Notes under the pieces: generated by a model
What the model was told of the DNA's origin: nothing
The model's database searches: none
The model's input: only the letters and a program-made list of their open reading frames with translations
Shown here: one piece after another, positions 11,809 to 30,235 of the stretch
Numbering within the stretch: position 1 is the first letter of the stretch
Layout: each line of letters starts with the position of its first letter
Made by a program: the position numbers and the translations under genes
Source: Sulfurimonas sp. C5
Lineage (GTDB): Bacteria > Campylobacterota > Campylobacteria > Campylobacterales > Sulfurimonadaceae
Length of the DNA stretch: 64,000 nt
Reading direction: 5' to 3'
NCBI RefSeq assembly: GCF_029872055.1
Contig: NZ_JARXNQ010000002.1
Coordinates: 1-64,000, forward strand

Positions 11809-12690
11809 ATGAAAAGAATAATTACTCACATAGAACTCGGTGGAACACTGTTCATTCCTGCAATTCATAAAAACTTAGCACCTATTATTTCAAAACAAAA
11901 ATATCCGCAATTGCGTTCATTAGTTATTGATTTTGAAGATGGACTTGATGATGAGCAACTACAAAATGGTTATGAAAAAGTTGTTTCTACTTTAGAGGTT
12001 TGTAGTGATACATCTCCATTTATATTTATCCGTCCGCGTGATGTAAATCATCTACAAACACTTTTAGAAATGGAAGGTATAGAGAATATAGATGGTTTTG
12101 TTTTACCAAAATTTTCACTAACAAATGGAACACAATATCTACATCTTCTGGAGAGAACAGATTTTTATATAATGCCTAGTATAGAGGGTGAAGAGCTCTT
12201 TAATGTAGAGAAATTACAACAATTAAAAGAGTTAATACTAACACACAAACATAAAATTTTGTTAGTTCGTTTCGGACTTGAAGATATGTTGAGGCAGCTG
12301 AGTATGCGAAGGTCTTGTGATGAATCTGTTTTCGATTTTGCAGCAGGCAGTGCAGTTATTGGAAATTTGATAGCAATTTTTAAAAGTGCAGGACTCTCGA
12401 TCAGTGGAGGCGTATATCCTTGTTTTCAAGATGATGAAGGGTTTAAGCGTGATGTTTTACGTGATCTTAAAGAGGGGCTTTTTGGAAAAACTATTATTCA
12501 CCCTGCACAGATAGATATTCTAAATGAACTTTATAAGGTGACTCAAGAGGAGTATGACGAAGCACAAGAGATCCTTCAGAGTGAAAATGTAGTATTTGAG
12601 CAAAACGGAAAAATGGCAGAGCAAAAAACGATGCAGCACTATTCAGAAACTATTGTGCAGCGTGCAGAAGTTTATGGGATTAAAAGTTAA
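11809..12690 (+). CDS. CitE-like HpcH/HpaI-family C-C bond lyase
   Basis: 293 residues of the TIM-barrel citrate-lyase-beta/HpcH type. Seen motifs are HIELGGTLFIPA at the start, RSLVIDFEDGLDD with acidic metal ligands, IMPSIEGEELF with the metal-binding Glu, and SGGVYPCF late. The opening THIELGGTLFIPA resembles the lyase-like proteins found with tellurium-resistance or stress operons, but no ter genes are nearby and the substrate is unknown. There is no ribosome site, and the promoter puts +1 at the ATG. The 3' end overlaps the convergent kinase gene by 11 bp. Confidence 0.7.
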   Translation: MKRIITHIELGGTLFIPAIHKNLAPIISKQKYPQLRSLVIDFEDGLDDEQLQNGYEKVVSTLEVCSDTSPFIFIRPRDVNHLQTLLEMEGIENIDGFVLPKFSLTNGTQYLHLLERTDFYIMPSIEGEELFNVEKLQQLKELILTHKHKILLVRFGLEDMLRQLSMRRSCDESVFDFAAGSAVIGNLIAIFKSAGLSISGGVYPCFQDDEGFKRDVLRDLKEGLFGKTIIHPAQIDILNELYKVTQEEYDEAQEILQSENVVFEQNGKMAEQKTMQHYSETIVQRAEVYGIKS

Positions 12691-13816
12691 GCGTTATTTT
12701 TGTTCCTATACCCTCTTGCGATTCTAGTTGAATTATATAGTCGTACTCTTTCGCAATCTCTTCAACAATATTGAGTCCGACACCAAAGCCACCGCTATAC
12801 TCTGAAGCTCTGACAAATCTTTGAAATACAGTATGAAGCTTTTCTTTGGGTATCCCTATGCCATAATCTTGAATACTAAAAAAGTTTTCTTTCGTTATTA
12901 TTTCTATAGTTCCGTTTTGGTGTGAATATTTGATTGCATTACCCAGCAGATTACTGATAAGCATTTTTGCCTTTGTTGGTGTGATAGTGAGATAACAAGG
13001 TTGGAGATCTGCTTTAATTGTAATATTCTTTTTGTTACTTAACTCGTTTACATAGTTTATCTGTTCCTGGACAATTTGTGCAAAGTTGATTTCCTCTTCT
13101 GCTTCTTGCGTATCAAAGCTGACATAGGAGAGAATTGCATAGATATCATGCAATTGTTTTGTACTGATTGAGATGTTATTTAAGATGTTTGGATCATATG
13201 TTTGCTTGGCTTTAAGACGTGAAAGTGACATCATGAGAGCAGTAATAGGTGTATTTAATTCATGTGTAGTGTCTCTTACGAAGGCTTCAATCTCGTTCAT
13301 TTTATCTTTAATCGGTTTGAGAAAAATATATGATAGAAAGACTGCAATAATAATAATTAAGATAGCTGTGATTACAACTACATAAGCAACTTTGTTTTTA
13401 ATTTTTTCCATGTTTTTAATACATTCATCACTTTGTATAACTATGTATGCTACTCCAAGATGGCCTGCAGAACGTGTTGAGACGAGTGTAAACATATCTT
13501 TATCCATATAAAAATCTTTTGTAAAGTCTACTTTTTGTACCAAGTTTCCTATGATGAGTTTTTTGTTTTTATCAATCAATGCCACACTCGCTCGATCGAA
13601 ATGTTTTAAATGAAACTTTTCATGCATCATAGCTGCATGTATAACCTCCGAACTAACCACATCTGCAATATGATTCATTTTATAAAAGTTATTATTTTTT
13701 TCCATTGCAACTTGGGAAGAATAAAACCAGTAAGCAGTAAGAGAGAGAAATATAAAAGAGCTGATAAGATAAAGTGCCAAAAAGGAGTAAAACGATTTTT
13801 TAGTGATATTATTCAT
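12680..13816 (-). CDS. sensor histidine kinase with His/Met-rich periplasmic segment
   Basis: 378 residues. Membrane helices at about 11-34 and 143-166 enclose a periplasmic domain of about 108 residues. The kinase core has His185 in FVRDTTHELNTPI, an N box (LISNLLGNAIKYS), and glycine boxes (DYGIGI, GFGVGLNI). Its first codons overlap the regulator gene, so the pair is one operon (regulator first). The sensor contains IHAAMMHEKFHLKHF (59-73), rich in His and Met, which would suit a transition-metal sensor; this is inference only. No HAMP domain is evident. Confidence 0.88.
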   Translation of the reverse strand: MNNITKKSFYSFLALYLISSFIFLSLTAYWFYSSQVAMEKNNNFYKMNHIADVVSSEVIHAAMMHEKFHLKHFDRASVALIDKNKKLIIGNLVQKVDFTKDFYMDKDMFTLVSTRSAGHLGVAYIVIQSDECIKNMEKIKNKVAYVVVITAILIIIIAVFLSYIFLKPIKDKMNEIEAFVRDTTHELNTPITALMMSLSRLKAKQTYDPNILNNISISTKQLHDIYAILSYVSFDTQEAEEEINFAQIVQEQINYVNELSNKKNITIKADLQPCYLTITPTKAKMLISNLLGNAIKYSHQNGTIEIITKENFFSIQDYGIGIPKEKLHTVFQRFVRASEYSGGFGVGLNIVEEIAKEYDYIIQLESQEGIGTKITLNF

Positions 13817-14462
13817 AGATGTATCCTTCAGAGCGGATAGTTTTGATTTTATCTTTGCCTATGATATTTCTCAGATCGCGTATATGGGAACGAAGAGTGG
13901 CCTCACTGGGTATTGAATCATAATCCCATATATTTTGTGTGAGCTCCTCACTTGAGATGATACGTGAACGATTTTTCAAAAAATAATTTAAAAGTTGTGT
14001 GTTTTTTTGTCCGAGAGATATTGTCTTGCCCTCTTTAGAGATTGTTTTTAAGAGTGGACTGAAGAAAACGGTTGGTGCGAGTTCGATCGACTGTTCATCT
14101 TCTATATGAAAAATTTTTTTGAGATTTAAGATTCTGAGATTAAGTTCATCAAGTTCAAACGGCTTTTTGATATAGTCGTGAGCTCCGGCATCAAAAGCTT
14201 TTTTTAAATGGTCTGTATCTTGATAAGCGGTAATAAAAATTGCAGGTGTGTTATAACTGAATTTACGAAGTTCTTGAAGCAATTTTATCCCGTTTTTTCC
14301 TGCAACATTGATATCAAATATAAAAAGGTCATATTGATTTTTATCCAACAAGGTATCTACCTCATTTGCATTATAAGCATGTGAAACCTGGTAAATTTCA
14401 CGTAAATAGTCTATTAATATATCTGCTAAAACAGGATCATCTTCAAGTAACAAAATATGCAT
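13809..14462 (-). CDS. OmpR-family response regulator
   Basis: 217 residues from the ATG at 14462, chosen because AAGG lies 9 nt upstream; a TTG nine bases earlier would overlap that site. The receiver domain has the acidic pocket Glu7-Asp8-Asp9, phosphoacceptor Asp50 (FIFDINV), Thr in FITAY and Lys in YIKKPF. A winged-helix DNA-binding domain follows (about 125-217) with SEATLRSHIRDLRN as recognition helix. Partner of the overlapping kinase gene. OmpR-type regulators bind 10-11-bp-phased direct repeats; see the promoters at 21092, 21998 and 30204. Confidence 0.92.
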   Translation of the reverse strand: MHILLLEDDPVLADILIDYLREIYQVSHAYNANEVDTLLDKNQYDLFIFDINVAGKNGIKLLQELRKFSYNTPAIFITAYQDTDHLKKAFDAGAHDYIKKPFELDELNLRILNLKKIFHIEDEQSIELAPTVFFSPLLKTISKEGKTISLGQKNTQLLNYFLKNRSRIISSEELTQNIWDYDSIPSEATLRSHIRDLRNIIGKDKIKTIRSEGYIYE

Positions 14463-14563
14463 GTTATACAACCTTATAGAACTATTTTAGCAGAAGTGAA
14501 AAAATAAAAAAAGAGTTATTTGTGATATACTTATATTAATAAGAACGAAAATGGTATGGAATT

Positions 14564-21091: not shown

Positions 21092-21123
21092 TACACAAAT
21101 ACTACACACAAATGTTATACAAT
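21092..21123 (+). promoter_or_regulatory. promoter with 11-bp-phased TACACAAA repeats before the HvfA-like gene
   Basis: TACACAAAT at 21092-21100, TACACACAA at 21103-21111, and a -10 TACAAT at 21118-21123. The repeat starts are 11 bp apart and the second starts 15 bp before the -10. The same geometry occurs at 21998-22029 and, on the minus strand, at 30235-30204. No TTGACA-like -35 is present; the repeats occupy that region, as in activator-dependent promoters. +1 would be near 21130, giving a leader of about 23 nt with AAAGGA. Confidence 0.65.
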
Positions 21124-21152
21124 ACTTGAAGTTTAACACAAAAGGATGAAAA

Positions 21153-21464
21153 ATGAAAAAGTTAGGTTTTATCAGTGTAATCACATCTGCTATGCTGTTG
21201 GTATCTTTCAGTACTATGACATTAAGTGCTGATGAAGGCATGGGAAAATGCGGTAACTCAAAAGAGAAAATGAAGGATCGCAAGATGATGGATGACGAAA
21301 AGATGAAAGAGGGTAAATGCGGTACGAAAAAAGAGATGAAGCGTAAAAACATGATGGATAATGAGAAATGTGAAGGTAAAAGAAGTGAGATGACGAAAGA
21401 GAAAATGATGAAAAAAGATGATAAAAAACCGATGAAATGCGGTGTAGGTAAGTGCGGTTCATAA
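21153..21464 (+). CDS. HvfA-like secreted Cys/Lys/Met-rich peptide (putative copper-binding RiPP precursor)
   Basis: 103 residues. A signal peptide (about 1-26, cleavage after LSA) is followed by a low-complexity segment of Lys, Met, Glu and Asp with five cysteines (33, 56, 73, 96, 101). Four are in KCG units: MGKCG, EGKCG (53-57), MKCG and VGKCG. EGKCG is the core motif of HvfA-type precursors, whose Cys are converted to oxazolone-thioamide groups by an MNIO enzyme and a partner. Such enzymes are not in this window, so modification is unproven. A DoxX-type gene follows, as in hvf operons. Neighbouring efflux genes suggest a copper role. Confidence 0.65.
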   Translation: MKKLGFISVITSAMLLVSFSTMTLSADEGMGKCGNSKEKMKDRKMMDDEKMKEGKCGTKKEMKRKNMMDNEKCEGKRSEMTKEKMMKKDDKKPMKCGVGKCGS

Positions 21465-21490
21465 CACCTGCACTCCGTTAGGAGTTAGTT

Positions 21491-21931
21491 ATGTGTATAA
21501 AAGATATCTATATGGAGTTTTCAAGACTCTCGGAAAATTTAAAGTCTTGTGCATTATTGTTTGCAAGGTTGATAGTCGCATACGGTTTTTATGAACCTGC
21601 TATGATGAAATGGAGTGATATTTCTGCAGTTGCCCAGTGGTTTGGTACATTAGGGATTCCACTACCGACACTAAATGCTTACATGGCTGCAACTACAGAG
21701 ATTACGGGTGTCGTTTTACTTACTTTAGGACTATTTATTCGAGCTATTTCAATCCCTCTTATTATTGTAATGATCGTTGCTATTGTAACGGTACATTTGC
21801 CTCATGGATTTCAAGCAGGACAAAACGGTTTTGAAATACCGCTTTATTATATGTTGTTTTTATTGATATTTTTGTCTCATGGAGCTGGAAAATTCTCTTT
21901 AGACAGAATGATTTTTGGAGATAAAAATTAA
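21491..21931 (+). CDS. DoxX/HvfX-type membrane protein
   Basis: 146 residues with four probable membrane helices (about 20-38, 62-82, 84-104, 117-134) of the DoxX family; ARLIVAYGFYEPAMMKW and GIPLPTLNAYMAATTEITGVVLLTLG are typical segments. DoxX proteins accompany HvfA-like peptides in copper-related RiPP operons (HvfX). It lies 26 nt after the peptide gene, with AGGAG before the ATG, and is surely co-transcribed. Its biochemical role is unknown. Confidence 0.8.
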   Translation: MCIKDIYMEFSRLSENLKSCALLFARLIVAYGFYEPAMMKWSDISAVAQWFGTLGIPLPTLNAYMAATTEITGVVLLTLGLFIRAISIPLIIVMIVAIVTVHLPHGFQAGQNGFEIPLYYMLFLLIFLSHGAGKFSLDRMIFGDKN

Positions 21932-21997
21932 GCTATAAAAACTTTTATACAGAAGATAGGAAACATATTCCTATCTGGATGCTTTCGTTAAAATTTT

Positions 21998-22029
21998 TAC
22001 ACACAACATACACAAATTTACTATATAAT
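21998..22029 (+). promoter_or_regulatory. second promoter with 11-bp-phased TACACAAA repeats
   Basis: TACACACAA at 21998-22006, TACACAAAT at 22009-22017 and TATAAT at 22024-22029: repeat spacing 11 bp and second repeat to -10 spacing 15 bp, as at 21092 and 30204. The predicted +1 coincides with the ATG at 22036. The preceding 21932-21997 shows no other signal. Confidence 0.65.
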
Positions 22030-22035
22030 TTTCGG

Positions 22036-22524
22036 ATGGATGCTTCAAAACGAAAATTTTTACAATATGGCTTTTTAAGCTCATCGGTATTTTTATTTGA
22101 CGGATGTAGTTTATTTGGTGTTACTACACCCTATAAAACGATAGAAGTTCTACAAAAAGATCTTGTCCCAAAAATAGTGGAATTAAATATCAAAACTATA
22201 TCGTATATGCACTTGGTTTTCAGACATAAAAAAATCTCTAAAAGTGATAAGGAGTTTTTGAAAAACGGTGTGAAATGGTTAAACGAAGAGGCAATTAAAA
22301 AGTATAAACGTGAGTATATCAAACTGCCTGCACATCAACGACAAAACATCCTAACAGAAATTGCTGATACGAAGTGGGGAGAGGATTTCTTATATGACAT
22401 TATGAGTTACACGTTTGAAGCGATGTTAGGCGATCCTATCTATAGCGGTAACAATAATCAAGCAGGTTGGAAATGGCTTGAATTTTCGGGTGGTCTGCCG
22501 CGTCCGAAGAAGGTGTATATATGA
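22036..22524 (+). CDS. gluconate 2-dehydrogenase subunit 3-like protein (small subunit of a GMC dehydrogenase)
   Basis: 162 residues from MDASKRKFLQYGF. The start is chosen because it begins the Tat-like signal (KRKFLQ) and lies exactly at the predicted +1; an earlier in-frame ATG would lie upstream of the promoter. The signal ends in LFDGC, a possible lipobox. The C-terminal part (GDPIYSGNNNQAGWKWLEFSGG) matches the gluconate dehydrogenase subunit 3 family, which helps export or anchor the flavoprotein subunit. It overlaps the GMC gene by four bases (ATGA). Confidence 0.78.
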   Translation: MDASKRKFLQYGFLSSSVFLFDGCSLFGVTTPYKTIEVLQKDLVPKIVELNIKTISYMHLVFRHKKISKSDKEFLKNGVKWLNEEAIKKYKREYIKLPAHQRQNILTEIADTKWGEDFLYDIMSYTFEAMLGDPIYSGNNNQAGWKWLEFSGGLPRPKKVYI

Positions 22525-24185
22525 GCTATGACGTTTGTATAATAGGAAGTGGAGCAGGTGCTGCTCCGATAGCTTATGAACTTAGCAATGCCGGATACAA
22601 AGTAATTGTTTTGGAAAAAGGGGAATATTACAGTGAAAAAGATTTTAATAAAGATGAACTGGCAGTTTCTCGCCGTGATTTTTTTACTCCGCCACTAGAT
22701 GAACAAAAGCATATTATAAACGAATATGAAGACGGAAAATATACCCGTTATGATGGGGCAGAATATAACTGGAATTTTTGGAACGGCTCTTTAGTTGGTG
22801 GCTCTTCAAACCTGATGAGCGGTTATTTTCACAGACTCAAACCGCAGGATTTTAGGCTCCTTTCTACATATGGAGAAATTGAAGGTGCAAATGTTGTTGA
22901 CTGGCCTATCTCTTATGAGGATTTAGAACCTTATTACGATAAAGTGGAAAAAGTGATCGGTGTAAGTGGCAGGGTTGTACAGCATAAATTTCAGGAGATG
23001 CGATCGAGCAAAGATTTTCCCTACCCTGAATTGCAAACCAATAATGCTGTCAAATGGTTTGATAAAGCTTGTGAAGAGTTAGGCTACAGCTCTATTCCGA
23101 CACCGCGTGCCATTTTGTCAAAAAGTGCTTTAGAGAGAAACAGTTGTTATTATTCAAATTTTTGTGGAAGTTATGGTTGCGCAAGTGGTGCAAAAGGGAG
23201 TGCAAGAGCAGCACTTTTGCAAAAGTGCAAGGCAAAAATAATTACCGATGCATTTGTGTATCATCTGGAGAGTGACGGTGAAAGAGTTACAAAAGCTTTT
23301 TACAAGACAAAACATAACGTTACTCATGTAGTCAATGCCAAGATTTTTGTTGTAGCAGCTCAAGCGATCGAGACTTCAAGACTTCTGTTGAATTCAAAAG
23401 ATGAGTATTTCCCAAGCGGTTTGGCAAACTCTAACGGGCAAGTTGGAAAAAATCTGATTTTTTCGGCAGGTGGGACTGGAAGCGGGCGTTTTATTTTTGA
23501 TAAATTGACATTGCAGCAGCAAAAAGAGTTGATGCAAGTGGGTGTATTTTTTAACAGAAGCCTGCAAGACTGGTATGAATATACAGAGGATGAAAAGAAC
23601 TATAAAGGCGGTACGATTGATTTCTTGTTTGAGCATCAAAATATAATTCCCCGAGTTAATCAAGAACTTTATAATGAAAATGGGAATTTGATGTGGGGTG
23701 AAAAGCTGATGGAGAAGATTCATAATCGTTTGACTACCTCAAGAGTGCTTACTTTTGAAGTGTTTAATGATTGGTTGCCTACCGATAAATGTTTTGTAAG
23801 TGTTGACGAGCAAGAGAAAGACAAATACGGTGTAAATGTAGGTGTTATTAACCTTTGCGGGCATAAACACGATCTAAAAGTTGGAGAGTTTTTGGCACAA
23901 AAGGCTATTTCAGTACTAAAGCAGATGGGAGCAGTTGAAATAGAGTCTAATATCTCAAATGCTCCACCTCCTAATTTGGTAGCGGGCGGATGCAGATTTG
24001 GAAATGATCCGGAAACCTCGGTACTCGATAAGAACTGTAAAGCACATGAAGTGGAAAATCTTTACGTAAGCGATGCGAGTTTCATGCCGACAGGGGGAAG
24101 TGTTCCTTATACGTGGACGATTTATGCCAATTCTTTCCGTGTGGCAGATCGGATTCAAGAGCATTTGAAAACTTTGCAGCTTTGA
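22521..24185 (+). CDS. GMC-family FAD oxidoreductase
   Basis: 554 residues. FAD-binding start IIGSGAGAAPIAYELSNAGY, GGSSNLMSGYFHRL as the GMC flavin loop, AAQAIETSRLLL mid-protein, and a C-terminal region NLYVSDASFMPTGGSVPYTWTIYANSFRVADRI typical of sugar/alcohol dehydrogenases. It has no signal of its own, so export would depend on the Tat signal of the upstream subunit. The substrate is unknown; sugar acids and alcohols are typical. No cytochrome subunit gene follows. The gene meets the convergent HMA gene with a 15-nt gap and no visible terminator. Confidence 0.86.
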   Translation: MSYDVCIIGSGAGAAPIAYELSNAGYKVIVLEKGEYYSEKDFNKDELAVSRRDFFTPPLDEQKHIINEYEDGKYTRYDGAEYNWNFWNGSLVGGSSNLMSGYFHRLKPQDFRLLSTYGEIEGANVVDWPISYEDLEPYYDKVEKVIGVSGRVVQHKFQEMRSSKDFPYPELQTNNAVKWFDKACEELGYSSIPTPRAILSKSALERNSCYYSNFCGSYGCASGAKGSARAALLQKCKAKIITDAFVYHLESDGERVTKAFYKTKHNVTHVVNAKIFVVAAQAIETSRLLLNSKDEYFPSGLANSNGQVGKNLIFSAGGTGSGRFIFDKLTLQQQKELMQVGVFFNRSLQDWYEYTEDEKNYKGGTIDFLFEHQNIIPRVNQELYNENGNLMWGEKLMEKIHNRLTTSRVLTFEVFNDWLPTDKCFVSVDEQEKDKYGVNVGVINLCGHKHDLKVGEFLAQKAISVLKQMGAVEIESNISNAPPPNLVAGGCRFGNDPETSVLDKNCKAHEVENLYVSDASFMPTGGSVPYTWTIYANSFRVADRIQEHLKTLQL

Positions 24186-24200
24186 AAAGGACTTGAAAGC

Positions 24201-24491
24201 TCATTGCTCTTTAGAAAGTTCAAACTTTCCAACAGCACAGGAAACAAAACTTTTTGCTTTTGCTGTGCTATCCTGTAGAAATCCAAGATGTTCATCTGCC
24301 ATTGGATAGCCGAGAGCTCTGAGCTCTTTACGGAGCTCTTGCTCCTGCTTTGGATCAAAATTGAGTGTAATCTCTCTAGGCATCACTTCAAGATTTACTT
24401 CAATGGTACCAAACAGAGGTTCCAGCTTTGTTTTTAAAGTATTGGCGCAACCGCCGCATTTGACATTTTGCACTTTAAATATTTGTTTCAT
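24201..24491 (-). CDS. HMA-domain copper chaperone-like protein
   Basis: 96 residues. An N-terminal heavy-metal-associated domain (1-65) with VKCGGCANTL (Cys12, Cys15), then a 30-residue tail with one more Cys (SFVSCAVGKF). It resembles CopZ/Atx1-type chaperones that pass Cu(I) to pumps. Its start lies within the last 17 bp of the CusA-like gene, so it is the final gene of the efflux operon. Metal choice is by context. Confidence 0.85.
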   Translation of the reverse strand: MKQIFKVQNVKCGGCANTLKTKLEPLFGTIEVNLEVMPREITLNFDPKQEQELRKELRALGYPMADEHLGFLQDSTAKAKSFVSCAVGKFELSKEQ

Positions 24492-27400
24492 GTTTCATCT
24501 CCCATCGTGCATAGATCTCATAAAGTATTGGAATTATAACAAGACTTAAGATCGCAGAGCTGACAATACCTCCAAGCATAGGTGCGGCAATACGCTGCAT
24601 CACTTCACTCCCTATACCGTTTGTGTACATAATAGGTGCAAGTCCTGCAAGTATTGCAAATACAGTCATCAGTTTTGGACGTACCCTTTGTACAGCTCCT
24701 ATATAGATTGCTTCATGAAGCTCTTTTATAGCAAATTCTTTAGAGTGTTTTTTCGCCTCATCTACAGCTTCTTGCAGGTATACAATCATTACAATCGCAG
24801 TCTCAGCGGCGACACCAAGCAGGGCTAAAAAACCTACGATCACGGCAACACTCATTGCAAAGTGCAACATATAGATATAGAGTAACCCGCCAAGCAATGC
24901 AAAAGGTAGGGTAAAAAATACGATTAGTGAAGGGATCGTTTTTTTCAGTGCGAAATAGATCAGTACTAAAATAAACAATAGTACGGCAGGGATGATCCAA
25001 ATTATCTGCGCCATAGCACGTTCAAGATACTTGGATTGCCCTGCCCACTCTATGTAATAGCCGTCTTCAAAATTTATTTTATCAATATATTTTTGTGCCT
25101 CTTGTACGTACTCTTTTGCACTAACACCCTCTTTTGGAGTGATATAGATAAAAGTAACCGGTTTTGCAAGTTCACTTTTAATCACCGATTGGTTTTGTTT
25201 ATAGTAAACATTAGCAAGTTCGCCAAGCGGTACAAAGCCGAATTGAGTCTTAATTTGAATATTTTTGATTGCTTCAAGAGAGTCCCTGTCAATATCTTCC
25301 AAACGAATTGTGATAGCATATCTCTCAAGGCCTTTGTAAAGAGTAGAGACTTTGAGCCCTCCGATTGCCAAAGATGTGTATTCAAGTATTTTTTCTTTGC
25401 TGAGATGATATCTTTTTATTTTTTGTTCATCAATATCGATATAGAGGTAATACCCAGTACTAGCCTGATCCGCAAACACGGAAAGTGTTTTATCAAAACT
25501 GCGAAGTTGCTCCTCTATCGCTTTGCCGTATTTTTGCAATCCTTTGGCATCTTTACCGTAAAGTTTTATTCCGATGGGAGTTCTTATACCGCTAAGAAGC
25601 ATATCAATGCGTCCGCGGATCGGATATGTCCATGAATTAGTAAGCCCAGGAACTTGTAGGGCAGTTTCAAGTTCATTTCTTAGAGAATCATAAGTAACGC
25701 CTTCTCTCCACTGCGACTTAGGTTTAAAAGTGATGATACTCTCGATCATACCAAGAGGAGCGGGATCTGTAGCAGTAGTAGCACGTCCCCCTTTACCAAA
25801 GACATGCTCGACTTCAGGGATACTTTTGATAATCATATCGGTCTTTTGTGTAAGAGCTTTGCTTTGATCGACACTGATACCATAAGGAGTGACCGGCATA
25901 TACATAAAAGTTTGCTCATTGAGCATAGGCATAAATTCCCATTTTAGTGAATAAACAAGCGGAAAGATCATGTTTAGCAGTAAAATGACAACAATTATGA
26001 TGAAGTACTTGAATTTAAGGGCATAAATAATTATTGGACGATATAGCCAAATAAAAAAGCGATTGATCGGGTTCTTTGATTCATGGATGATTTTGCCTTT
26101 GACAAAAAGAAGTATCAGTACCGGTACCAGAGTGATACTTAGAAGTGCACCCGCAGTCATAGCAAAGGTTTTTGTGTAAGCAAGGGGTGTAAAAAGCAGA
26201 CCTTCTTGACCGCCCAGTGAAAATATAGGTAAAAATGAGACAACGATAAGTGCAAGAGCAAAAAAGATAGGACGTCCAACTCTTTGAGAGGACTTTAAAA
26301 TGATCTCAAAACGTTCTTGTTTATTTGGTACTCTTTGTTGGATATTTTCAAATTTATGCAGCATTTTATGGGAGTTCTCTATCATTACGATAGATGCATC
26401 CACCATCGCACCGATTGCAATGGCAATACCCCCAAGACTCATAATATTGGAGCCTATACCAAAGAGTTTCATTAGAAGAAATGTTACACCGACTGTAAGT
26501 GGCAGTGTGATAAGCACAATTAAAGATGAGCGCAGGTGGAGTAAAAAGAGTGCAATGACAACAATCACGATAATACTCTCTTCGATCAGAGTGTCTTTGA
26601 GAGTATCTAAAGCACCGTCAATAAGAGATGAACGGTCATATACAGTTGTAACGTTCACATCATCAATTTTGAGCTCTTGCATCTTCTTTTTTATGTTTTG
26701 GATAGTTTTATAGACATCTTCTCCATAGCGTACGAGTACAATTCCCCCTACAACTTCGCCTTTTCCATCAAGGTCTGCCATACCGCGGCGAGGAGCCGGA
26801 ACTTTCTGTACTGTTGCTATGTCACCGAGAGTAAGAGGGATATTCTCTTTATTTGTAATTGTAAGTGAGCGTATACTTTTGAGGTCTTGGACATAACCTT
26901 TTGCCTGTACCATCCATTCATAACCGTTTTTAATAACAATACGTCCCCCTGTATCATTATTGTTTTGCTTGAGTATTTTAGCGATATCCCCAATATCAAG
27001 GTTGTATTTAACCAGAGTGTCATTCTTGATAGTCACTTCATAATTTGGTACAAAACCACCGATAGAAGCTACCTCACTGACACCATCAACACCCATGAGT
27101 GCATATTTATAGTAATAGTCTTGAATAGTTCTGAGTTCGGAAAGGTTTTTTGTTTTTGAGCTCAGGGCATATTCGTAAACCCATCCTACACCGCTTGCAT
27201 CAGGTCCTAAAGTTACTTTCATATTTTTTGGCAATTGAGACTGTACACTTGCGAGTTGTTCAAGAACACGGCTTCTTGCCCAGTAAAGATCAGTTCCGTC
27301 TTTAAAAATGATGTAGATGAGTCCCGTTTCGTAAGTGGAATATCCACGTACCGTTTCAATATCAGCGATTGCTAAAAATTGTGATACAAGCGGGTAAGTC

Positions 27401-27594
27401 CCTTGCTCCTCTACTGTTTGAGGGGATTGTCCATTGTATTTTATCTGTACGATTACCTGAGGCGGTGAGAGATCTGGCAGGGCATCAAGAGGGGTGTGTT
27501 TCATACTCCAGATACTTCCCGCTATTAAAAAGAGCGTTGTAAACAATATAAGAAATTTATTTTTTAGGCTAAAAGCTATTATTTTTTCTATCAT
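24475..27594 (-). CDS. cusA: CusA/CzcA-type heavy-metal RND efflux pump
   Basis: 1039 residues of the HME-RND family: N-terminal membrane helix, two large periplasmic loops and twelve helices in the usual two blocks. Seen motifs are DALPDLSPPQVIVQ near the start, GGIAIAIGAMVDASIVMIEN in helix 4 with the proton-relay Asp, GKGGRATTATDPAPLGMIE, and LLGVAAETAIVMIVYL in the second half. Met-rich porter segments (MYMPVTPYG) favour copper/silver over zinc. It is the pump of a tripartite system with the adaptor and outer-membrane genes upstream. Start overlaps the adaptor stop by one base. Confidence 0.9.
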   Translation of the reverse strand: MIEKIIAFSLKNKFLILFTTLFLIAGSIWSMKHTPLDALPDLSPPQVIVQIKYNGQSPQTVEEQGTYPLVSQFLAIADIETVRGYSTYETGLIYIIFKDGTDLYWARSRVLEQLASVQSQLPKNMKVTLGPDASGVGWVYEYALSSKTKNLSELRTIQDYYYKYALMGVDGVSEVASIGGFVPNYEVTIKNDTLVKYNLDIGDIAKILKQNNNDTGGRIVIKNGYEWMVQAKGYVQDLKSIRSLTITNKENIPLTLGDIATVQKVPAPRRGMADLDGKGEVVGGIVLVRYGEDVYKTIQNIKKKMQELKIDDVNVTTVYDRSSLIDGALDTLKDTLIEESIIVIVVIALFLLHLRSSLIVLITLPLTVGVTFLLMKLFGIGSNIMSLGGIAIAIGAMVDASIVMIENSHKMLHKFENIQQRVPNKQERFEIILKSSQRVGRPIFFALALIVVSFLPIFSLGGQEGLLFTPLAYTKTFAMTAGALLSITLVPVLILLFVKGKIIHESKNPINRFFIWLYRPIIIYALKFKYFIIIVVILLLNMIFPLVYSLKWEFMPMLNEQTFMYMPVTPYGISVDQSKALTQKTDMIIKSIPEVEHVFGKGGRATTATDPAPLGMIESIITFKPKSQWREGVTYDSLRNELETALQVPGLTNSWTYPIRGRIDMLLSGIRTPIGIKLYGKDAKGLQKYGKAIEEQLRSFDKTLSVFADQASTGYYLYIDIDEQKIKRYHLSKEKILEYTSLAIGGLKVSTLYKGLERYAITIRLEDIDRDSLEAIKNIQIKTQFGFVPLGELANVYYKQNQSVIKSELAKPVTFIYITPKEGVSAKEYVQEAQKYIDKINFEDGYYIEWAGQSKYLERAMAQIIWIIPAVLLFILVLIYFALKKTIPSLIVFFTLPFALLGGLLYIYMLHFAMSVAVIVGFLALLGVAAETAIVMIVYLQEAVDEAKKHSKEFAIKELHEAIYIGAVQRVRPKLMTVFAILAGLAPIMYTNGIGSEVMQRIAAPMLGGIVSSAILSLVIIPILYEIYARWEMKHETNI

Positions 27595-28595
27595 CAGTAC
27601 AATCCGTTTATTTGCGCATCGCTATCCATCATAAACAGCGCATTATTGACTACTTCATCGCCTTCGTTTAATCCCTCTGTAATAATGTAATGCTCAGTGT
27701 CAAGGAGTTTCGCCATGATTTGCAGCGGTTCATATTCACCTTCATACTCACCTACCATGAAAACATAGAATTTTCCGTTTTTACGAATAACAGCAGTTTT
27801 TGGCAGTACGAGATACTGCTTTTTGATATCTATCCCTTTGAGTGTTGCATATTGTCCCAAAATAAGTTTATGTGTAGGATCATTCACTATCAGCCGCAGG
27901 GTATAAGCTGCGGCTTTTGGATCTACATCTGGATAAAGCACTTTTTTATTTGTAACTAATGGGGTGTCGGTTGTTGCCGTCGTAACTTCAAAACTTTGTG
28001 TGTTTTTAATCGATGCGAGCTGAGTGTCAAAGAGTTTTGCCTCAATCCAAAGAGAGTCGGTATTGATAATTTTGTACAGCATGTTTCCTGCTTTAAAAGC
28101 ACTGCCATCTACTATGGTTTTTGCAAACAAATAACCGTTTTTCGGTGTATAAATGGTAGTAAGTTTAGAGACTTTTTTGTTTTTTATAACATCTTCTATC
28201 TCTTTGTTACTTATTCCAAGAAGCTCAAGTTTTGTACGTGCACTTTTAAGCATACCGTTTGTATTGTTTCGTTTTGTATAATAGTAAGAGTTGAGGTAAT
28301 CCTCTTTTGCTTTGTATACCTCAGGTGAGTAAATAGCTGCGAGTGCTTGTCCTTTTTGAACATAACTATAGATTGCATCAACATAAATTTTCTCTACAAA
28401 TCCGCTAAAACGGGGCATAATCATATAAATATTAGCTTCATCAGCTTTGACGTAGCCGTAACTTTTAAAGCTTTTTGCAACATCCATCTTTTGTACTTTA
28501 ACTGTCTGGACACTAAAAAGTTGCGTAACATTCTCTCCGGCGTTTAAGAGAGTGACAAAGGTTAATAAAACTAAAATTTGTTTGAAGATACTCAT
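27594..28595 (-). CDS. cusB: CusB-like periplasmic adaptor of the metal efflux system
   Basis: 333 residues. Signal peptide (1-18, ending LNA), then membrane-fusion-protein order: beta-barrel/lipoyl half (AYGYVKADEANIYMIMPRFSGFVEKIYV), a short helical hairpin (EVYKAKEDYLNSYYY), the second lipoyl half (IYTPKNGYLFAKTIVDGSAFKAG) and a C-terminal barrel. GFVEKIYV with GYVKAD is typical of CusB. It is shorter than E. coli CusB and lacks the N-terminal Met-rich extension. Overlaps the TolC-family gene by four bases. Confidence 0.87.
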   Translation of the reverse strand: MSIFKQILVLLTFVTLLNAGENVTQLFSVQTVKVQKMDVAKSFKSYGYVKADEANIYMIMPRFSGFVEKIYVDAIYSYVQKGQALAAIYSPEVYKAKEDYLNSYYYTKRNNTNGMLKSARTKLELLGISNKEIEDVIKNKKVSKLTTIYTPKNGYLFAKTIVDGSAFKAGNMLYKIINTDSLWIEAKLFDTQLASIKNTQSFEVTTATTDTPLVTNKKVLYPDVDPKAAAYTLRLIVNDPTHKLILGQYATLKGIDIKKQYLVLPKTAVIRKNGKFYVFMVGEYEGEYEPLQIMAKLLDTEHYIITEGLNEGDEVVNNALFMMDSDAQINGLY

Positions 28596-29773
28596 TGTAA
28601 TGCTCCTGTTAAGGCCTCTATGTTTGCTTTGTTCTTATGGTATGAAGCTACTGCAAGAATGCTTTTTTTCTCCAAAGAGAGTTTTGTAAAAAGCACATCG
28701 ATATATTTGAAAAGATCAGCACCAGTACTTACCGAAGCACTTGAGAGTTCAAACATATGCTCCACTTTAGGCAGTGCGTCATCGTGAACAATATGATAGA
28801 TCTCATAGGCTGAGAGCATTTGTGCATAATAAATGCCGAGTTTTGCATCTATAAGAAGGACTGTATCTTGTCTTTTACTCTTAGAAGAGAGTAGTTCAGC
28901 CTGTTGTATCTGCTCTTTGTCGTCTTCAGTTGAGTAGATAGGTAAAGTGATGCCGACTCCAAAATTGAAGTAGTTATCAAATTTCTCTCTATGAGCATAG
29001 CCTACAAGTAAAGAGATATTTGGATAATTATCAAGTGAGATTGCCTCAAGTTTGGCACTTTGCAGAGCAACTTTTTTATCTTCAATACCCAGTTCAGGAT
29101 TTTGAGAAAGTTCATTTTTCAGCTCGCTTAGTGAGGGTTTAGTATCTATTGAAAGATCAATATCAAGTTTATCAATATGTGTAGATGCAAGATAGGAAAG
29201 TTCTTCGTAGGTACTTTGTATTTGTGCTGTCAGTTTACTTCGTTCAATACGCAGATCGCTAAGACTGAGTTCCGCTTTCATGATCCCCATATGTTGGCTA
29301 CTGTTGATCGAAGCATAAGATTCATAAAGTTCTATATTTTGTTGTGTCAGTTGTATATACTCATCAGTAACGCCTAAGAGTGCTTGTAGTTGCCAAAGAG
29401 TATATGCCTGCTGTTTTATTTTTTTAACAAGTTGTACTTTTAGAAGTTTTAACTGCTCTTTGAGTAAATCTTCATTAGAAGTTGCAACTGCCTCCTCGGC
29501 ATCAAGTTTACCGTAATACGGAATCTCCTGCTGAAGCGTTACAATACTCTGAGACATCTTTTCATTACTGTCAAGGGAGTTTGAAGTGATGGTAAGCTTT
29601 GGATTTTTGAGATTGTCACTTGCTTCTATAGCAAAGGCAGAACCTTGGATCTTCTCGTTGATCGAAGCAAGCGAGTTATTTTTGATAATTGCATCTTGAA
29701 TAATTTCATCCAGAGTAGCACCGAATAAACTACTCAAAAAAATGAATATTATCGATAACCTATATAAGTGCAT
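28592..29773 (-). CDS. TolC-family outer-membrane efflux protein
   Basis: 393 residues with a signal peptide (1-18, ending LFGA) and two long helical repeats separated by a short barrel part, the outer-membrane-efflux pattern; SNEDLLKEQLKLLKVQLVKKIKQ and the mirrored C-terminal helix are visible. It is the CusC-equivalent exit duct for the CusB/CusA-like proteins. At 393 residues it is somewhat shorter than CusC (about 440). No lipobox is seen. Confidence 0.82.
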   Translation of the reverse strand: MHLYRLSIIFIFLSSLFGATLDEIIQDAIIKNNSLASINEKIQGSAFAIEASDNLKNPKLTITSNSLDSNEKMSQSIVTLQQEIPYYGKLDAEEAVATSNEDLLKEQLKLLKVQLVKKIKQQAYTLWQLQALLGVTDEYIQLTQQNIELYESYASINSSQHMGIMKAELSLSDLRIERSKLTAQIQSTYEELSYLASTHIDKLDIDLSIDTKPSLSELKNELSQNPELGIEDKKVALQSAKLEAISLDNYPNISLLVGYAHREKFDNYFNFGVGITLPIYSTEDDKEQIQQAELLSSKSKRQDTVLLIDAKLGIYYAQMLSAYEIYHIVHDDALPKVEHMFELSSASVSTGADLFKYIDVLFTKLSLEKKSILAVASYHKNKANIEALTGALQ

Positions 29774-29783
29774 GAATGGCTCT

Positions 29784-30170
29784 TTAAAAGTTTAGAGTCG
29801 TTTTTACACGGAGCTTCTTACCTTTTTTAGGTGTTATAAAAACGTGAAGCTGCCAAGTACCGTTCATTACAAGATTGAGTTTTACAATATATTCTCCATT
29901 ACCTTTATTTACGGCATCTGCTTTTGATTCCATTGCCGGCATACCAGGCATCGCAGGCATAAAAGCTTTTACAGAGACTTTGGCATCACTTATGAGTGTA
30001 TTCTCTTTTTTAATAAGTAATACCAACTCATTAGAACCAGCAGTTAAAGGTTTTTGTGCAGAGATATTGATATGCGTTGTTCTGAAATTTGCATTTTTTT
30101 CAAATGCTGCTGCATGTGCTAGTGTAATAGTGACGAGCATTGCAAACAAAAATTTTATTAATGATTTCAT
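29784..30170 (-). CDS. YtkA/FixH-like periplasmic protein with Met-rich loop
   Basis: 128 residues from the ATG at 30170, with GGAG 6 nt upstream (a TTG six bases earlier overlaps that site). Signal peptide ending AHAAA, then an immunoglobulin-like YtkA domain: SAQKPLTAGSNELVLLI, a MPAMPGMPAM loop (about 82-92) and a final strand pair. The Met-rich loop would suit Cu(I)/Ag(I), similar in idea to CusF, but the fold is YtkA-like. It is the first gene of the operon and lies 10 nt before the TolC-family gene. Confidence 0.78.
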   Translation of the reverse strand: MKSLIKFLFAMLVTITLAHAAAFEKNANFRTTHINISAQKPLTAGSNELVLLIKKENTLISDAKVSVKAFMPAMPGMPAMESKADAVNKGNGEYIVKLNLVMNGTWQLHVFITPKKGKKLRVKTTLNF

Positions 30171-30203
30171 ATTCAACTCCTTTTTTATTTTGGTTTTAAG
30201 GGT

Positions 30204-30235
30204 ATTTTACTGAAGTTTTGTGGTCTCTTTGTGTA
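30204..30235 (-). promoter_or_regulatory. promoter of the metal-efflux operon with 11-bp-phased repeats
   Basis: Read on the minus strand: TACACAAAG (30235-30227), ACCACAAAA (30224-30216) and -10 TAAAAT (30209-30204). Repeat starts are 11 bp apart and the second starts 15 bp before the -10, as at 21092 and 21998. The second repeat matches less well (CACAAA core). +1 near 30197 leaves a leader of about 27 nt with AAGGAG. Confidence 0.6.

Follow-up and report, generated by a model that had tools for sequence, protein, structure and literature searches.

The 64,000-nucleotide stretch of Sulfurimonas sp. C5 DNA discussed here (contig NZ_JARXNQ010000002.1, positions 1 to 64,000; hereafter the window) contains three promoters with a tandem pair of TACACA-like repeats. 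They lie in front of genes for a small cysteine-rich peptide and an HvfX protein, a GMC dehydrogenase pair, and a Cus-type efflux operon. The phased repeats are very probably the operator of a copper-defence regulon, in which a histidine kinase (HK-A) would sense copper or silver and an OmpR/PhoB-type response regulator (RR-A) would activate transcription.

Aligned from the first half-site, the promoters read TACACAAATACTACACACAAATGTTATACAAT (21092-21123, + strand), TACACACAACATACACAAATTTACTATATAAT (21998-22029, + strand) and TACACAAAGAGACCACAAAACTTCAGTAAAAT (30235-30204, - strand). The repeat pair is TACACAAA-TAC-TACACACA in the first, with the -10 box TACAAT at 21118-21123, TACACACA-ACA-TACACAAA in the second, with TATAAT at 22024-22029, and TACACAAA-GAG-ACCACAAA in the third, with TAAAAT at 30209-30204. 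All three keep a distance of 11 bp from the start of one half-site to the start of the next, and of 15 bp from there to the -10 box. An earlier note on this DNA had described three sites of identical geometry, and re-reading bears this out to the base. It had also called the second repeat of the third site weaker. This half-site does differ, but ACCACAAA is not simply a decayed copy, because CCACA-type halves recur at the crdA promoters of relatives. Direct repeats with an 11-bp period over the -35 region, at a constant gap to the -10 box according to the spacing matrices, constitute a PhoB-like architecture.

The first site serves a secreted 103-residue peptide rich in Cys, Met and Lys (21153-21464, +), which in the open reading frame translation ends in KCGVGKCGS and whose ATG lies 30 nt behind the -10 box. 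It is followed after 26 nt by a DoxX protein (21491-21931, +; PF07681) that belongs to the HvfX family (NF050144, 118.8 bits, cut-off 80), associated with the maturation of copper-binding ribosomally synthesized and post-translationally modified peptides (RiPPs). Downstream of the second site are a Gluconate_2-dh3-like subunit (22036-22524, +; PF13618), with an N-terminus that agrees with those of relatives, and a GMC oxidoreductase (22521-24185, +; PF00732, PF05199). The likely ATG of the small subunit, at 22036, is only 7 nt past the end of the -10 box at 22029, and the transcript is therefore predicted to be leaderless. The third site serves an operon on the - strand that encodes a CrdA-like YtkA-domain protein (29784-30170; PF13115), a CusC/CrdB-like outer-membrane efflux protein (28592-29773; PF02321), a CusB/CzcB-like membrane-fusion protein (27594-28595; PF16576), a CusA/CzcA heavy-metal resistance-nodulation-division pump (24475-27594; PF00873; TIGR00914, 960.9 bits, cut-off 701), and finally a small protein resembling heavy-metal-associated domains (24201-24491). 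The GGCANT motif of the latter was read by eye, and homologues are found near cus genes in relatives.

Rarity and recurrence of the repeat pair

The host genome (2,059,954 bp in 25 contigs, G+C content 34.7%) was reassembled from stretches and searched on both strands. The pattern MCACA-11-MCACA-15-TANNAT matched five times, whereas 129 other spacing combinations (repeat distances of 7-16 and -10 distances of 9-21) averaged about 0.1 matches, with a maximum of 1. Besides the three window sites, the five matches comprise one in front of copA and one in front of a SHOCT peptide gene next to it. With a 32-base IUPAC pattern and up to three mismatches, there were six matches, as opposed to none for the reversed control. 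In 60 genomes of the genus, 93 pattern matches compare with 4 control matches, and a looser pattern gave 117 and 5, respectively. Related regulators and their surroundings were covered by 80 named loci from Sulfurimonas, Sulfurovum and others; here, the 11/15 spacing was found 30 times, and every other spacing at most four times.

For ranking, a matrix was built solely from 52 sites of other genomes, and the maximum on the reversed sequence, 14.4 bits, was taken as the null. Genome-wide, the window sites came first (21092, 38.3 bits), second (21998, 28.6 bits) and fourth (30235, 26.9 bits). The third rank was taken by C1:496288 (28.4 bits), 28 nt before copA, the gene for a copper P-type ATPase (TIGR01511, 594 bits, cut-off 397). 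Next came C1:498732 (25.5 bits), which precedes the gene for a small SHOCT-domain membrane peptide beside copA, then C3:489 (21.2 bits), and finally C1:763771 (18.9 bits), a weaker match in front of a second SHOCT-domain peptide gene. The additional sites at copA and the SHOCT genes complete a functionally coherent set, which counts in favour of a copper regulon. At least six, and perhaps seven, promoters of the host genome carry the box pair. A further candidate, C1:353571, was discarded at 9.4 bits, below the null maximum. The two SHOCT peptides (C1:498487-498702 and C1:763831-764037) are alike and look like paralogues, and they have Sulfurovum homologues under the same motif.

The site at C3:489-520 (- strand, locus L057), TTCACAATCACTTCACAA, combines the 11/15 geometry with TTCAC halves. 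It is located before a cytochrome c gene, which is followed by a possible sox gene, and directly after a regulator/kinase pair (C3:1680-2345 and C3:533-1720), the regulator being the next-closest paralogue of RR-A. This suggests that it is the operator of the C3 regulator and lies outside the RR-A regulon. It fits the DccR box of Campylobacter jejuni, reported to read WTTCAC-N6-TTCACW. The DccR box shares with the window sites the 11-bp period over the -35 region and an origin in the same phylum, but it has TTCAC instead of TACAC halves and other targets.

Contrary to two doubts raised in the earlier note, the spacing and reversed controls and the cross-genome matrix distinguish the pattern from random intergenic sequence, and in relatives it is conserved in front of orthologous genes. 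In the genus, genes with such a site upstream encode HvfA-like KCGxGKCG peptides, HvfX, the GMC subunit and CrdA, and in genome G011 also a CopZ-type protein. The distance from the -10 box to the ATG is mostly 25-34 nt, as expected of promoters. Within the 80 named loci, sites are also found before CopA proteins with a YHS-like start, CusC, homologues of the SHOCT peptide at C1:763831, and twin-arginine (Tat) signal 'QRRTFVKG' proteins, which by eye look like multicopper oxidases. Sulfurovum prefers TGCACA halves. The gene set that recurs in Sulfurimonas and Sulfurovum comprises the HvfA-like Cys peptide, HvfX, the GMC pair, crdA/cus, CopA and a SHOCT peptide.

At crdA, the repeats extend further. 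Among 27 crdA loci outside the family of the host, 20 have two NCACA halves 11 bp apart, with 15-16 bp to the -10 box, a count that includes one ACATA second half and two ACACG first halves. They span six families of the order besides that of the host, and the spacing matrix has a clear peak in the 11/15 cell (13 loci).

The candidate regulator and its kinase

Seven kb from the sites, the window encodes RR-A (13809-14471, -) and its cognate kinase HK-A (12680-13816, -; PF00512, PF02518), which has a short periplasmic sensor region. Response regulator and winged-helix domains above cut-off (PF00072, PF00486), together with D53 in an invariant FDIN motif, place RR-A in the OmpR/PhoB family. By model score, it falls outside the CopR/SilR/CusR subfamily (TIGR01387, 95.6 bits, cut-off 279.2; NF007346, 68.6 bits, cut-off 420). 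The CusRS / CopRS copper systems of Escherichia coli include an OmpR-type copper regulator of a Cus pump. RR-A is similar in being an OmpR-type regulator linked to a Cus pump, but scores far under the curated cut-offs for copR/silR/cztR and for copper/silver regulators. The host genome contains 11 regulators with a Trans_reg_C domain above cut-off.

The earlier note had proposed this regulator, and its distribution argues for that choice. Orthologues of RR-A (58-73% identity) are present in 28 of the 60 genus genomes, host included. The exact TACACA motif was found in 27 of these 28 genomes, compared with 3 of the 32 that lack RR-A (Fisher p = 2.4e-12, shared ancestry ignored); for genomes at least 90% complete, the counts are 19 of 20 and 1 of 21. 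The sole RR-A genome without the exact motif, G009, was rejected as a counter-example, because versions of the motif with one mismatch do occur there, including one immediately before hvfX. Conversely, four genomes without RR-A (G004, G005, G037 and G045) have hvfX above cut-off and no exact motif, and the motif therefore follows the regulator and not the target. RR-A also adjoins motif promoters, or lies within about 1 kb of them, in G026 (contig C61), G052 (contig C140), G047, G032 and G055, and in two Sulfurovum loci sites are found upstream of the regulator gene itself.

A second paralogue group, RR-B, is 46-49% identical to RR-A and occurs in about 20 genus genomes; it is absent from the host. 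In the loci read, RR-B is encoded beside crdA/cus with CACAAAC..CCACAC-type sites. The host has RR-A alone, and its crdA site bears a CCACA-type second half. Among genomes without RR-A, the motif does not clearly track RR-B (2 of 8 with RR-B versus 1 of 24 without, p = 0.15). In G011, crdA and a CopZ-type gene diverge beside an RR-B/HK-B pair, and each of the two has a site to itself (G011:C1:115654-115737, equivalent to L191:7655-7738).

Regulator genes are located beside crdA in several families of the order, and the crdA promoter carries the presumed site. Of the regulators next to crdA elsewhere, those of 9 of 10 loci find their best match in the host genome in RR-A, the exception being family L312. 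For the f14 kinases, the C3 kinase outscores HK-A. In a small alignment of the sensor region, Met63 and His119 are nearly invariant in HK-A and HK-B, both linked to crdA/cus, and both residues are lost in the C3 paralogue. This is consistent with a role as copper ligands in HK-A.

A probable copper-defence regulon and its alternatives

Most probably, the regulator that works through the repeats is RR-A. Excess periplasmic copper, or silver, would be detected by HK-A, which would phosphorylate RR-A. The latter would then bind head-to-tail to two TACACA half-sites spaced by one turn of the helix (11 bp), which would begin at about -38 and -27 if the -10 box occupies -12 to -7. Housekeeping promoters of Campylobacterota are not known to have a strong -35 box, so the regulator dimer would substitute for this element and recruit RNA polymerase, like PhoB at the pho box. 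The genes switched on would be those for the Cys peptide and HvfX, the GMC pair, the crdA-cusCBA operon, copA, and one or two SHOCT peptides. In the pho box, tandem half-sites 11 bp apart stand upstream of the -10 box in place of a -35 element. The window sites share this arrangement, but their half-site is TACACA and not TGTCA, and they serve metal instead of phosphate genes.

The system is best read as a copper two-component system of the CrdRS type, with an OmpR/PhoB-type regulator that would act on tandem T(A/C/G)CACA boxes. CrdRS of Helicobacter pylori (HP1365/HP1364), with its target crdA-crdB-czcB-czcA, is likewise composed of an OmpR-type regulator and a membrane kinase that control crdA and a CusCBA-type pump, and RR-A-type regulators are found beside crdA across the order. 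The regulon described here differs in adding the Cys peptide, HvfX, the GMC pair, CopA and the SHOCT peptides. The data support a well-defined, CrdRS-like copper regulon of the OmpR/PhoB type, some members of which are unexpected. In H. pylori, CrdR is reported to bind a 21-nt sequence (PMC9927306). In the literature searched, we found neither an earlier description of the operator discussed here nor a CrdR consensus for Helicobacter.

The earlier note had attributed all three promoters to one activator of a copper or silver regulon. A single activator is supported by the shared motif and the tracking of RR-A, and copper is suggested as the signal by the gene content, namely CopA, CusA, CrdA, the CopZ-type protein and HvfX. 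It is conceivable, though improbable, that the regulon is real and responds mainly to something else, such as silver or gold only, thiol or envelope stress, or nitrosative stress. Pumps of the CusA/CrdA type can carry other ions, nitric oxide is reported as a further stimulus of CrdRS in H. pylori (PMC9696931), and in one genome the motif precedes a pyridine-nucleotide-disulphide oxidoreductase that is MerA-like by eye. However, the five proteins just listed all indicate copper, and in H. pylori copper induces crdA through CrdRS (PMC9696931, PMC9927306).

Slightly less probable still is that the sites are shared but bound by another of the eleven OmpR-type regulators of the host, for example those at C3:1680-2345 or C2:162351-162989. 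The C3 regulator would be a candidate, as the next-closest paralogue beside a similar repeat with the same geometry. Its neighbouring site, however, has TTCAC and not TACAC halves. Across the genus, where RR-A and RR-B were profiled, the motif tracks RR-A; in many genomes the RR-A gene lies near the sites, and RR-A is the preferred host counterpart of crdA-linked regulators in other families. An origin by chance, or from the composition of an AT-rich genome in which CACA-type repeats are frequent, is refuted by the spacing and reversed-pattern controls, the cross-genome training and the functional coherence of the set, even though lone sites do arise inside genes of relatives (a histidine kinase gene in L131 and a dapE-like gene in L132, L135 and L139, all discarded as false positives).

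Some points weigh against a copper regulon controlled by RR-A. The sites, their geometry, rarity and conservation, the target genes and the co-occurrence with RR-A were observed directly, whereas we infer binding, activation, phosphorylation and the identity of the metal. The pattern that served to collect the training sites of the matrix was derived from the three window sites, so the ranks of these three lack full independence. Independence does hold for the spacing controls and for the copA and SHOCT sites, which did not enter into the pattern. The neglect of shared ancestry affects all co-occurrence statistics for RR-A. Of the 80 named regulator loci, 39 have no site of at least 17 bits within the stretch examined. 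Finally, RR-B may share or split sites in the genomes that encode it, though the host does not.

Tentatively, and short of calling it probable, one may propose that the box pair goes back to an ancestral copper operator of the Campylobacterales (T-N-CACA pairs, 11 bp apart, in place of the -35 element) to which CrdR-type regulators bind. Within Sulfurimonas, duplication would have given rise to RR-A/TACACA and RR-B/CCACAC-type pairs, and the operator would have recruited a copper-buffering set of Cys peptide, HvfX and GMC dehydrogenase, mostly MNIO-free and thus with unmodified peptides.

Sulfurimonas and Sulfurovum are common in vents and redoxclines and are exposed to metal-rich fluids. For their copper defence, the operator offers a sequence to search for and comes with a specific candidate regulator. 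It ties orphan genes to copper, namely those for SHOCT peptides, the GMC/gluconate-dehydrogenase pair and Cys peptides without MNIO, and it provides a testable model of the CrdR operator for the whole order, Helicobacter included.

The Cys peptide, HvfX and MNIO

The label HvfA-like, which the earlier note had given to the peptide at 21153-21464, holds for its counterparts in the genus, which match the HvfA model. The window peptide itself does not match the HvfA models, and a search of the host genome for the MNIO enzyme (PF05114) found none. Membership in the HvfA/bufferin RiPP metallophores requires both, and the peptide is thus not proven to be a bufferin. The host is typical in this respect, as 29 of the 31 genus genomes checked have no PF05114, and HvfA-like peptides and HvfX occur without MNIO in nearly all of them. 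Only in G001 and G018 is the enzyme present, and there the motif precedes an operon that encodes MNIO together with an HvfA-like lipopeptide and also contains an additional hvfC-like gene. An MNIO next to the peptide in loci L186, L188 and L198 was rejected, since the divergent neighbour of 234-298 residues matches no such model.

Sigma factors are listed as regulators of bufferin clusters (PMC12452194). The genes described here resemble bufferin/HvfABCD clusters in that HvfX passes its model and in that the hvfA-like and MNIO operons of G001 and G018 bear the motif. They differ in mostly lacking MNIO and in having a site of the two-component type instead of sigma factors. In loci L315 and L316 (family f7), a CrdA-like YtkA protein has an HvfA-like MKCGAGKCG sequence fused to its N-terminus, a hint that the Cys peptide and CrdA are functionally connected.

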